A stretch of 64,000 bases of DNA from Echinicola strongylocentroti (GTDB lineage: Bacteria; Bacteroidota; Bacteroidia; Cytophagales; Cyclobacteriaceae): the NCBI RefSeq assembly GCF_003260975.1, contig NZ_CP030041.1:6141501-6205500 (forward strand), written 5' to 3'. This document shows, in pieces, positions 58,960 through 62,283 of the stretch. The notes beneath the pieces are model-generated. The model worked only from the letters and a program-made list of their open reading frames with translations, was not told where the DNA came from and ran no database searches. Position numbers and translations under genes: made by a program. The stretch's first letter is position 1. Every line of letters begins with the position of its first letter.

Positions 58960-59148
58960 GGTTTTAGGTTGTTGTTTTGGGACTATTTCTCTTGGTAGTT
59001 AACTGTCATTGTTTTCTAATATAATGTAATTTATACCAAAGAACATAATGATATCAAATGTGTCTGTCGGTTTTTATAAGCCCAATACTTTTTTTACGCA
59101 TGGTGGAAGGGCGATTGGAAAATTGGTAAATCAATCATTATTTATACT
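58960..59148. other. Intergenic gap upstream of PAS protein
   Basis: 189 bp of mixed composition; it should hold the promoter of the minus-strand PAS gene. A 72-residue frame starting at 59,048 runs through repeat copy 3 and is not supported. Confidence 0.4.
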
Positions 59149-59250
59149 AAACCCGAAATATGCATTAGTCTATCTACGCCACTGCGCACAAGTATTTCGG
59201 TCTGATCCGTCCGGCGGACAAAATCAATCGCTTCGCTTTAATTTTCGGTT
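59149..59250. repeat. Dispersed palindromic element, copy 3 (inverted, truncated)
   Basis: The end AAACCCGAAATATGCATTAG, followed by TCTATC and later AAAATCAATCGCTTCGC, matches the reverse complement of the right ends of copies 1 and 2 (AAAATCAGTCGCTTCGC in copy 2). The opposite terminal repeat is missing. A GC-rich centre GTCCGGCGGAC keeps the hairpin plan. It lies about 30 bp outside the repeat of the mnmE 3' end. Confidence 0.7.
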
Positions 59251-59280
59251 CTATCTGGCTGTATAGAGCTGTCTTTATGA

Positions 59281-59335
59281 TTTACTTCCCCCGATACAGA
59301 AAGTATAACTTACTGACAAACAATTCGTCAATTAT
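59281..59335 (-). other. Diverged copy of the mnmE 3' end (att-like repeat, distal)
   Basis: Three blocks are identical, in the same order and orientation, to the 3' end of mnmE: TTTACTTCCC, GATACA and AACTTACTGA, with a 2-bp and a longer insertion between them; ATTCGnCAA then also matches. The mnmE counterpart is 60,900-60,940. The pair bounds the RhuM-Fic gene and a gene remnant, as expected for the ends of an integrated island. Confidence 0.55.
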
Positions 59336-59380
59336 ACTACGGTACAAATAACGGTATAGAATCAAGGATCATGATAAACC

Positions 59381-60385
59381 TCAATATTTCAGGTTCCTGT
59401 TCAGTACACTAATCACCAATTTCTTCACCGTTTCCATTTCTTCAGGTCTACTTGAAGCGATAAATAAGGTCAAGCTGGCAAGTGCATCATTGCTGATTAT
59501 TGGTTTCCTATTTTGGGTGTGGAGTAGGTCATTCGACTGTAAAAAGAGGAGAAAGCAGGCTGCAGCAATTCGTTTATTACCATCTACAAAACCATGATTC
59601 TTCACGATCAAATATAGAAGCGTAGCTGCTTTTTCTTCTAGGGTAGGATAGAAGTCCTCTTCCCCGAAGCCTTTGCTGATCTGTGCTATTGCGCTTTCAA
59701 AGCTTCCGTCTTTTTCTTTTCCAAATACACCAGATTCAAAATCTGATCTCATCGATTTTATTATCTCCTGATATTGAGATAATTCAGGATAAGTTGCTTT
59801 TCTCTTGCTTAAACCTTTTTTATCTAAATTTTCGTGATCGTAATCATCAAGCAATTCTAGTCCTTTTGCGAATTGATTCAGCCAATCTAAATCAAAGTGT
59901 TGGACTTCTTCCTTTTGCTGAATTGCTCTGCTTAAAATCCGTATTCCATCTTTAAGGGTTTGGACTTCTTGTTGTTTTTGAGCGAGTCTGTTTTCATTTA
60001 TAGCGTAACCTTGGATAAGATAGTCTTTTAAGCGTTTGGTAGCCCAGATCCTAAATTGAGTACCCTGTTTTGAGTTCACTTTATAGCCAACAGATAAAAT
60101 GAGATCTAGATTGTAAAACTCAACTTCCCTTTCGACTTTTCTTTTACCCTCCATTTGAACTGTTGCATTTTTTGCAACAGTTGACTGTCTATCTAATTCA
60201 CCTTCCTTATAGATATTTCTAATGTGCCTAGAAATAACGGACTTGTCACGATGAAACAAGTCTGAAATTTGCTGTAAAGATAGCCAAAAGGTATCTCCCT
60301 CAAATTTCACCTCAATTTGGGTCTGCCCGTCGGTTCCCTGATATATTTCAATTTGGTTTTCCATTTCTACCACAATTGTCTCCAT
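59381..60385 (-). CDS. RhuM/Fic (death-on-curing type) fusion protein
   Basis: 334 residues. N-terminal RhuM-like domain at about 5-180 (QTQIEVKFEGDTFWLSLQQI, SVISRHIRNIYKEGEL, EFYNLDLILSVGYKVNSKQG, FRIWATKRLKDYLIQGYAIN), then a C-terminal Fic/Doc domain with the motif HGFVDGNKRIAAA (His264 onward). Canonical Fic is HPFxxGNGR; the Doc-type K replaces the second G, which in Doc changes the reaction to phosphotransfer. Such fusions travel on islands and resemble toxin or defence genes. Noticeably AT-richer than its neighbours. The start at 60,385 is kept; ATG 60,364 is an alternative. No antitoxin gene is obvious nearby. Confidence 0.9.
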   Translation of the reverse strand: METIVVEMENQIEIYQGTDGQTQIEVKFEGDTFWLSLQQISDLFHRDKSVISRHIRNIYKEGELDRQSTVAKNATVQMEGKRKVEREVEFYNLDLILSVGYKVNSKQGTQFRIWATKRLKDYLIQGYAINENRLAQKQQEVQTLKDGIRILSRAIQQKEEVQHFDLDWLNQFAKGLELLDDYDHENLDKKGLSKRKATYPELSQYQEIIKSMRSDFESGVFGKEKDGSFESAIAQISKGFGEEDFYPTLEEKAATLLYLIVKNHGFVDGNKRIAAACFLLFLQSNDLLHTQNRKPIISNDALASLTLFIASSRPEEMETVKKLVISVLNRNLKY

Positions 60386-60618
60386 GGGAGTAATTTACTC
60401 AAATTTTAAAAAAGGTTTAAGATCAAATTTTTTAAACTGAAACGAGTTGCGAGTTTTAGTAAAACCCTTGGTTATTCCATCGAAATCATCAGGGCCGCAA
60501 GTAAGAATTTGTTATACAAATACACAACTTGCAAAGACCACTCCAATGCTGACTTCCGAGCTTCCTTGCTTCCTGCAAAAGGATCGTTTCAATATGTGTT
60601 TCAGTTAATGTATTTACC

Positions 60619-60876
60619 TATTGGTATATTTCAATATTTGATTACCAAAAAGGCAAGGCAATTGAAATAGAAAGGGTAGTCCAGCTTGGAAACATGGACG
60701 ATTGGCTGACTATTTTCAACCTTTATGGATATGATGGTGTGAGGGAAGAAATTAAGGAAATCCCCTACCTCAATCCTAAAGACATGAATTTTGTACACAT
60801 TATTTTTGATCTCCCATTGAATGAACTGAAATGTTTTAAAAATAGCCTATCAGGAGAGCGCCACTGGTCTAACTAA
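60619..60876 (+). pseudogene. Remnant of a DUF6922-like gene
   Basis: An open frame ends at 60,876; only an internal ATG (60,694) is available, but homology-like sequence continues upstream without a start: YISIFDYQKGKAIEIERVVQ, then GNMDDWLTIFNLYGYDGVRE and IPYLNPKDMNFVHIIFDLP. This is the pattern I know from small DUF6922-type proteins (IERV..G....W....YG..., LD.K.LNF...F..P), which often sit beside AbiEii-like nucleotidyltransferase toxins. The N-terminus and the partner gene are missing, so it is most likely a decayed fragment. Confidence 0.5.
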
Positions 60877-60899
60877 TGAAATCCTTTTATCCCAGACTA

Positions 60900-60940
60900 T
60901 TTACTTCCCGATACAAAACTTACTGAAAATATTCGCCAAC
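60900..60940 (-). other. mnmE 3'-end att-like repeat, proximal
   Basis: The last codons and stop of mnmE; paired with the diverged direct repeat at 59,281-59,335. The 3' end of mnmE (trmE/thdF) is the established chromosomal insertion site of SGI1-family islands in Proteobacteria. Confidence 0.55.
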
Positions 60941-62283
60941 AGATCATCGGTAGTAATTTCCCCGGTGATTTCTCCTAAAAAGTGCAAGGACCTGCGAATG
61001 TCCATGGCCAAGAAGTCATTGGTGATTTCAGCATCAATTCCGTTAAGCACATCCAATAAAGACTCCCGGGTTTTTACTAGGGAATCATAGTGGCGAATAT
61101 TGGTCACCACTGTATTTCCTGTCTTGAATTTATCCAAATTGACCAAATCGAGAATATTGGTCCTTAGCGCCTCCAGGTTTTCCTTTTGACCAGCTGAAAT
61201 GAAAATGGTATCCGGATGCTTATCTTTTAATTCGGTGATAAAGCCCTCAGTCGCTTTGTCGATTTTATTGGCCACCTTTACAAAAGGAACTCCCAGGTTT
61301 TCCAACTTATTGATGTCCCTATTGATCTCCACCATATCCGTATCACTAAGGTCAAATAGATAAAGGATCAATGAAGCTGTTTTCATCTTTTCCTGTGTCC
61401 TGGATACGCCCATGGCTTCTATCGTATCGGTCGTCTCTCGTAGTCCTGCCGTATCGATAAACCTAAAAATAACCCCTCCAATATTAATTTCATCTTCTAT
61501 AAAATCCCGTGTCGTACCAGCTATTTCTGAAACAATGGCCTTTTCTTCGTTGAGTAGGGCATTTAGTAAGGTAGACTTCCCTGCATTGGGTTTTCCGGCG
61601 ATAACAGTAGGCACGCCATTTTTGATCACGTTACCCAGGTCAAAACTGCTAATCAGCTGCTCCACTACTCTCAATAGCTTTTCTACCAATTGCTGTAGGT
61701 CGTCACGACTGGCAAACTCCACGTCTTCCTCCACAAAATCCAGCTCTAATTCGATCATGGAAGCAAAATGGATCAGTTGATCCCTTAGTTGTTTGATCTC
61801 TCCACTAAAGCCTCCTCGCATCTGATGTAGTGCTGCTTGGTGGGAGGCTTCACTGTCCGAATGGATCAGGTCAGCCACTGCTTCAGCTTGAGCCAAGTCA
61901 AATTGTCCATTCAAAAATGCGCGTTGCGTAAATTCACCGGGCTTGGCAGGCCGGGCACCTTTTCTTATCAGCAGCTTGATGACCTGGTTAATGATATAAG
62001 AAGAGCCATGCGTGGAGATCTCCACGACATTTTCTTTGGTAAATGATTTGGGTGCCACAAATAATGAAACCAGTACTTCATCGACTATTCTTTCCCCATC
62101 TCTGATGGTACCAAAATGGATAGTGTGGCTTTGTTGCTCCTCTAAGTTCTTACCACCAAACACTTCATTGGTAAGCTTGATGGCATCTTTGCCGGACAGA
62201 CGTATAACGGCTATGGCACCCACTCCCTGTGGTGTGGCCAAAGCAATGATGGTATCTGCTTTTTCGCTGATGGAGAAACTCAT
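60901..62283 (-). CDS. mnmE: tRNA uridine-5-carboxymethylaminomethyl modification GTPase MnmE
   Basis: 460 residues, standard length. N-terminal formyl-tetrahydrofolate-binding domain (DTIIALATPQGVGAIAVIRL), helical region, embedded G domain with GKPNAGKST (230-238), GTTRD, DTAGLRE and NKID, and the conserved C-terminal CIGK whose Cys is needed for activity. With MnmG it installs the cmnm5 group at U34 of certain tRNAs. Housekeeping gene and the best anchor for the chromosome here. The stop codon lies within the att-like repeat described separately; the coding frame is intact. Confidence 0.98.
   Translation of the reverse strand: MSFSISEKADTIIALATPQGVGAIAVIRLSGKDAIKLTNEVFGGKNLEEQQSHTIHFGTIRDGERIVDEVLVSLFVAPKSFTKENVVEISTHGSSYIINQVIKLLIRKGARPAKPGEFTQRAFLNGQFDLAQAEAVADLIHSDSEASHQAALHQMRGGFSGEIKQLRDQLIHFASMIELELDFVEEDVEFASRDDLQQLVEKLLRVVEQLISSFDLGNVIKNGVPTVIAGKPNAGKSTLLNALLNEEKAIVSEIAGTTRDFIEDEINIGGVIFRFIDTAGLRETTDTIEAMGVSRTQEKMKTASLILYLFDLSDTDMVEINRDINKLENLGVPFVKVANKIDKATEGFITELKDKHPDTIFISAGQKENLEALRTNILDLVNLDKFKTGNTVVTNIRHYDSLVKTRESLLDVLNGIDAEITNDFLAMDIRRSLHFLGEITGEITTDDLLANIFSKFCIGK

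Follow-up and report, generated by a model that had tools for sequence, protein, structure and literature searches.

A probable decayed island remnant at the 3' end of mnmE in Echinicola strongylocentroti, at a site used by integrase-bearing islands of related Bacteroidota

The 1.6-kb stretch between mnmE and a worn repeat of its 3' end in Echinicola strongylocentroti is, in our assessment, probably (about 0.8) what is left, after decay, of an island once integrated at the mnmE 3' end. We analysed 64,000 nucleotides (the window), carried by a 6.25-Mb single-contig genome at 6,141,501-6,205,500, and compared them with ten further Echinicola genomes (G001-G010); L-numbers denote individual mnmE loci. 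The window mnmE protein is 91-92% identical to that of three named Echinicola. An earlier note on this DNA had proposed such a remnant, and the proposal gains support from the islands of relatives at this site and from a core and arm-type motif in the window. Since neither an intact version of the segment nor an empty site was found in a close strain, we infer, rather than observe, past mobility of the 1.6-kb piece. The features, in window coordinates, are:

60901-62283, minus strand: mnmE (trmE/thdF), a widely conserved tRNA-modification GTPase and target gene; intact, 460 aa (Pfam MnmE_helical, TrmE_N, MMR_HSR1)
60901-60918, minus strand: proximal site (attL position), the final 18 bp of mnmE, TTTTGTATCGGGAAGTAA, the end of FCIGK-stop; placed by the breakpoint in G002 versus L076/L115
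60646-60876, plus strand: decayed DUF6922 fragment, stopping 24 nt from the mnmE stop (PF21956, E 1.4e-7, profile positions 18-52 of 52)
59381-60385, minus strand: cargo gene for a RhuM-Fic (Doc-type) protein; intact, 334 aa (PF13310, PF02661; TIGR01550 DOC_P1; PADLOC PDC-S23, E 4.3e-130)
59341-59351, minus strand: candidate arm-type site TTATTTGTACC, with its end 42 nt inward of the distal core; the G002 right end has the identical 11 nt at that offset
59280-59335, minus strand: distal repeat (putative decayed attR) with core CTGTATCGGGGGAAGTAAAT at 59280-59299; identified by alignment to the mnmE tail, score against simulations and comparison with mapped right ends

Islands with an integrase occupy the mnmE end, over its final ~18 bp, in four of the ten other Echinicola genomes, with right ends downstream of the gene at +10,991 (G010), +19,664 (G002), +25,705 (G005) and +28,953 (G003), and in Cyclobacterium roseum L109, with a right end at +8,027; no mnmE-site integrase was found in G001, G004, G006, G007 or G009. 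In all five islands the far boundary is marked by a directly repeated copy of the mnmE 3' end, and the pattern TGTATCGGnAArTAA forms the exact close of the G005 and G010 islands and, slightly varied, of those in G002, G003 and L109. The L109-type integrase (E<=1e-40) gave five matches across the 11 Echinicola genomes, all within the mnmE island region. The site can be occupied in tandem, as G005 carries two distinct integrases of the mnmE-island family (G005:C1:4201845-4229304), the second just past the first right end. The sequence beyond the G005 right end is the sequence found immediately after mnmE in G008, which retains an island-type first gene (by eye) and is therefore unoccupied for the G005 island only and no virgin site. 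By eye, an ORF resembling an IS200-type transposase lies on the minus strand at +76 to +516 past the mnmE stop in L122 (G009).

Comparison of the G002 island with loci in Algoriphagus formosus (L076) and Cyclobacterium lianum (L115) revealed 92-94% identity over 6.3 kb of island DNA, against 74-75% for mnmE, and the transition between the diverged gene and the closely matching island DNA comes within the final codons of mnmE, in the core. The G002-type island has evidently moved between genera recently at the mnmE core. The 11.0-kb G010 island encodes, in order, an integrase (Arm-DNA-bind_5, Phage_int_SAM_5, Phage_integrase), an unassigned protein, an HTH_17 protein, VapE, a Toprim/CHC2 primase, MobC and a relaxase, the predicted make-up of a mobilisable element. 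In this it resembles NBU1, NBU2, Tn4555 and Tn4399, the Bacteroidetes integrative and mobilisable elements (IMEs), relaxase-bearing but without a transfer apparatus, that are described in PMC5704250, but its target is mnmE.

To place these islands more widely, we surveyed 80 named Cyclobacteriaceae mnmE loci, which were the best by mnmE similarity rather than a random draw, together with 7 further Echinicola loci, the window and 38 family-sample loci (126 in all, from which three duplicates were dropped). At least 3 kb of sequence lies downstream of mnmE at 118 of these loci, and a tyrosine recombinase starts within 3 kb past the mnmE stop on the same strand in 25/118 and on the opposite strand in 0/118; the rate is low if anything, because the 38 family-sample loci were chosen from genomes without an integrase match at 1e-60. 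As the integrase profile was built mostly from mnmE-adjacent integrases, the upstream side of the same loci provides a fair control, and there no integrase occurred within 3 kb of mnmE (0/76 loci). A search of 196 family genomes at 1e-60 gave 41 integrase places. Of the 30 examined, 29 directly follow mnmE and share its strand; at the remaining one (L218) mnmE lies 1.7 kb upstream on the same contig. Judged by coordinates, the other 11 comprise 4 beside mnmE (G145, G160, G120, G030), 3 on a contig different from that of mnmE (G133, one of G135, G107) and those in G149, G018, G037 and G147, for which no mnmE position is listed.

A phylum sample of 395 genomes yielded 28 integrase places, two of them already in the family set; mnmE lies upstream in 15 of the other 26, across six families besides that of the window, and the remaining 11 are placed otherwise. 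Over family and phylum together, the integrase adjoins the mnmE end on the same strand at 44 of the 56 examined integrase loci. The earlier note had called use of this site in a Bacteroidota chromosome notable, and the use extends well past one chromosome. On a tree of 79 integrases, 68 of them labelled mnmE, the label requires 5 changes compared with a mean of 10.4 in shuffles, indicating that target choice is conserved but not fixed; a single mnmE-only clade was rejected on the same count. At L244, L247 and L249, integrase relatives lie 3' of a gene with a DnaK-like protein end (by eye), making this gene a possible second target of the family. Viral contigs held one weak relative of the mnmE integrase, and relatives in plasmid and phage records were below 60% identity.

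In the window, the mnmE tail TTTTGTATCGGGAAGTAA recurs 1.6 kb downstream in the same orientation as CTGTATCGGGGGAAGTAAAT, with a fainter likeness extending up to about 59335. The match requires several small gaps, and the distal core, with its 2-base insertion, repeats the tail inexactly. The gapped local score of the mnmE tail plus stop against the real 10 kb downstream was 16.8; none of 500 first-order Markov sequences of 10 kb reached it (best 16.0), 16 other window segments scored at most 13.0, and a reverse-strand control of the window tail against 79 other loci at most 15.6. The repeat described in the earlier note is thus real, though gapped. When each of 123 loci was scored against itself with a slightly shorter tail, the window scored 14.8 and the top reverse-strand control 16.1, so that the repeat alone is unremarkable in a scan of that size. 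By itself it therefore offers modest evidence for a putative att site. The stretch upstream of the distal core, scored alone against mnmE, gave 12.0, a value that 0 of 3000 shuffles reached, but the corresponding stretches at the four mapped right ends of other Echinicola scored only 5.5-8.0. Because this mnmE-like stretch is missing from the four other right ends, we take the ~18-bp core and the arm-type site 42 nt inside it as diagnostic. We rejected the core pattern alone as a specific island marker, as its 16 exact matches in the 11 Echinicola genomes comprise 10 mnmE ends, 2 island right ends and 4 elsewhere; a backward control pattern matched once.

The arm-type motif links the distal repeat to mapped islands. 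TATTTGTACC ends 42 nt before the core in the G002 right end and 41 nt before it in the L109 right end, and the distal core of the window is preceded by TTATTTGTACC, ending 42 nt away, with 11 nt common to G002 and 10 nt to L109. TATTTGTACC occurs once in the window, and TTTGTACC-N38-48-TGTATCGG has a single occurrence in the 6.25-Mb genome, at the distal repeat. A run of at least 11 bases in register within 3 bases, against any of six right ends, arose in 0.44% of simulated sequences, a figure to be read with the motif having been noticed post hoc. TATTTGTACC is absent from the right ends of G003, G005 and G010 and from the L106 site, which have GTACA-type motifs instead. At the other end of relatives' islands, TTTGTACC lies at 118-123 nt in 9 of the 16 left ends examined, and the remaining 7 have TTTGTTGC; such left-end sequence was not found in the window segment. 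With the arm motif at the right spacing and common to G002 and L109, the distal repeat fits best as the putative worn right end of an L109- or G002-type island. The suggestion in the earlier note that the distal repeat is an island end holds for the core, which closes the islands of G005, G010, G002, G003 and L109, and is not borne out at four other right ends for the mnmE-like stretch upstream of it.

Between the repeats, Pfam matches uphold the cargo named in the earlier note, an intact RhuM-Fic gene and a decayed DUF6922 fragment; as also noted there, no integrase lies inside, with neither a match to the island integrase profile nor a further notable ORF, and no G002- or L109-type integrase was found in the genome as a whole at 1e-60 or at 1e-40. 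The RhuM-Fic protein scores just over the cut-off of the NCBIfam Doc toxin family (TIGR01550) and is a candidate defence gene. Three Cyclobacterium loci have DNA homologous to the gene on the 3' side of mnmE, where L106 shows an open, full-length frame, L099 a frame that seems broken and L108 a short remnant; judged by coordinates, a RhuM-Fic fragment also lies 0.8 kb 3' of mnmE in G200. In L106, RhuM-Fic stands between mnmE and an att-like core at +2,766, without an integrase inside, and a truncated island integrase lies just beyond. The RhuM-Fic DNA of L106 and the window is 83% identical, compared with 74% for mnmE, which suggests exchange. We rejected RhuM-Fic as an mnmE-specific gene, as homologues occur in 52/196 family genomes, mostly elsewhere; among 30 such loci from the family sample, mnmE fell within the 1.5-kb flanks only in the window's own.

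The two ends of the segment are of att type, the mnmE tail on one side and the worn distal core with its arm motif on the other, and the RhuM-Fic gene and the DUF6922 scrap are the only contents found in it, without recombination or transfer genes. We accordingly read the segment as CIME-like, that is, a putative integrase-less, cis-mobilisable relic with att-like ends. Streptococcal CIMEs, which PMC7563491 describes as att-flanked, integrase-less relics of 1.2-13 kb with cargo, are likewise flanked and loaded; the window differs in being a single relic, in a Bacteroidota chromosome, with a worn core and with no partner integrase found in the genome.

The 1.6-kb segment lies beside mnmE in none of the ten other Echinicola, which speaks against its being ancestral there, the outcome that the earlier note had named as contrary to its proposal. 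Past the distal repeat, the chromosomal flank (PAS kinase, GH92) has matching DNA in 8/10 of these genomes, never adjoining mnmE; with this flank placed elsewhere, there is no clean empty site for the island in question. Parts of the mnmE-downstream DNA of G007 sit at 0.26-0.57 Mb in the window's genome, so that synteny decides nothing. The comparison proposed in the earlier note therefore delivered islands with a tyrosine recombinase in relatives and no clean empty site for the window's island. Just past the distal repeat, at 59145-59269, we observed a ~110-bp dispersed intergenic repeat with 78-92% identical copies; excluding the RhuM-Fic copy, it has 24 further genome matches at E<=0.001, mostly partial, and it is also present in G005.

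By analogy with the islands of relatives, an element-borne tyrosine recombinase would have joined the attP core to the final ~18 bp of mnmE (FCIGK-stop). As the element supplies new final codons, mnmE would stay intact, and the displaced chromosomal mnmE end would become attR at the far side of the island. The left part, including the integrase and presumably excisionase-type and mobilisation genes, would have been lost later, leaving the RhuM-Fic/Doc cargo, with any function it may have, and the DUF6922 scrap, followed at the right end by the arm-type site and a core lengthened by two bases.

Three other explanations bear on the same evidence. The distal site could have closed an earlier mnmE island that has since been deleted, with RhuM-Fic and the DUF6922 fragment entering separately; tandem occupation, known from the second integrase in G005 and suggested by the appearance of L106, would allow such a pair of events, but the three Cyclobacterium loci with RhuM-Fic DNA immediately downstream of mnmE favour travel at the site, and we consider this account unlikely. 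It is very unlikely that the segment is ordinary variable intergenic DNA, with a chance likeness to mnmE and a RhuM-Fic gene that arrived alone. A gapped match barely over the best of 500 simulations (16.8 against 16.0), a survey score under the best of 123 reverse controls (14.8 against 16.1) and the presence of RhuM-Fic homologues in 52/196 family genomes speak for this account; against it stand the core with an arm motif at fixed spacing, a combination that occurs once in the genome, and the use of this very locus for integration within the same genus.

We give still less credence to a duplication of the mnmE 3' end by slippage or homologous recombination, with no integrase involved. In its favour, the repeat in L272 also takes in about 300 nt of mnmE-downstream sequence, L052 has a 317-nt copy, and the window repeat resembles mnmE upstream of the core too; however, the likeness in the window fades within about 60 nt and is followed by an island-type arm motif at the offset of mapped right ends. 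We therefore retain the reading of the segment as the remainder of an integrated island that would have lost its integrase.

A second mnmE tail without an integrase-profile match in between was also found at L052 (+1.1 kb), L107 (2.2), L113 (1.8), L250 (2.5), L262 (3.4) and L286 (3.0). The scores of these integrase-less second tails range from 14.3 to 55, with L107 (15.5), L113 (14.3) and the window (14.8) under the top reverse control of 16.1, and those at other loci may have an origin different from that in the window. Native and foreign ends cannot be told apart in the 317-nt duplication of L052; at this locus two small genes resembling a toxin-antitoxin pair (by eye) precede the copy, at +89 to +683 past the mnmE stop. 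We rejected the strong repeat of L272 as an att pair, as it belongs to the longer duplication, and set aside a match at +46 in L063 (score 18.5), which lies right beside the tail.

That mnmE serves as an island site was known from the SGI1 family, whose tyrosine recombinase uses the final 18 bp of mnmE (trmE/thdF), sometimes in tandem, according to PMC2297512 and PMC8409611, and the statement to this effect in the earlier note agrees with them. The comparison between SGI1, in Gammaproteobacteria, and the Bacteroidota islands concerns the target site alone; the phylum differs, as does the gene content, exemplified in G010 by the Arm-DNA-bind_5/Phage_int_SAM_5 integrase, HTH_17, VapE, primase, MobC and relaxase. 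The table of PMC5704250, in the part accessible, gives trmE for gammaproteobacterial SGI1 and MGIVchHai6 only, the available text on a Riemerella island locates it at an Arg-tRNA, and an integrase-mining paper does not name mnmE in its main text. Among the matches listed in one open-access literature library, which were accessible in part, none described islands at mnmE in Bacteroidota; the TIGER/Islander collections could hold such islands. Use in Bacteroidota extends a known site to a second phylum, where it is frequent in the window's family.

We further propose, tentatively and at somewhat less than even odds, that the final ~18 bp of mnmE (the FCIGK tail) are the landing site of one large Bacteroidota tyrosine-recombinase family, independent of SGI1. 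The integrase-less pieces (the window, L106 and perhaps L052, L107, L113, L250, L262 and L286) might then form a cis-mobilisable cargo pool, with candidate defence genes and genes of toxin-antitoxin type among its contents, from which islands passing through can re-collect cargo. The ends, arm-type motifs and integrases described here are available for mobile elements of environmental Bacteroidota and could become site-specific integration tools, and a core with an arm motif at a fixed distance is a suggested way to spot island relics after their integrase has been lost.
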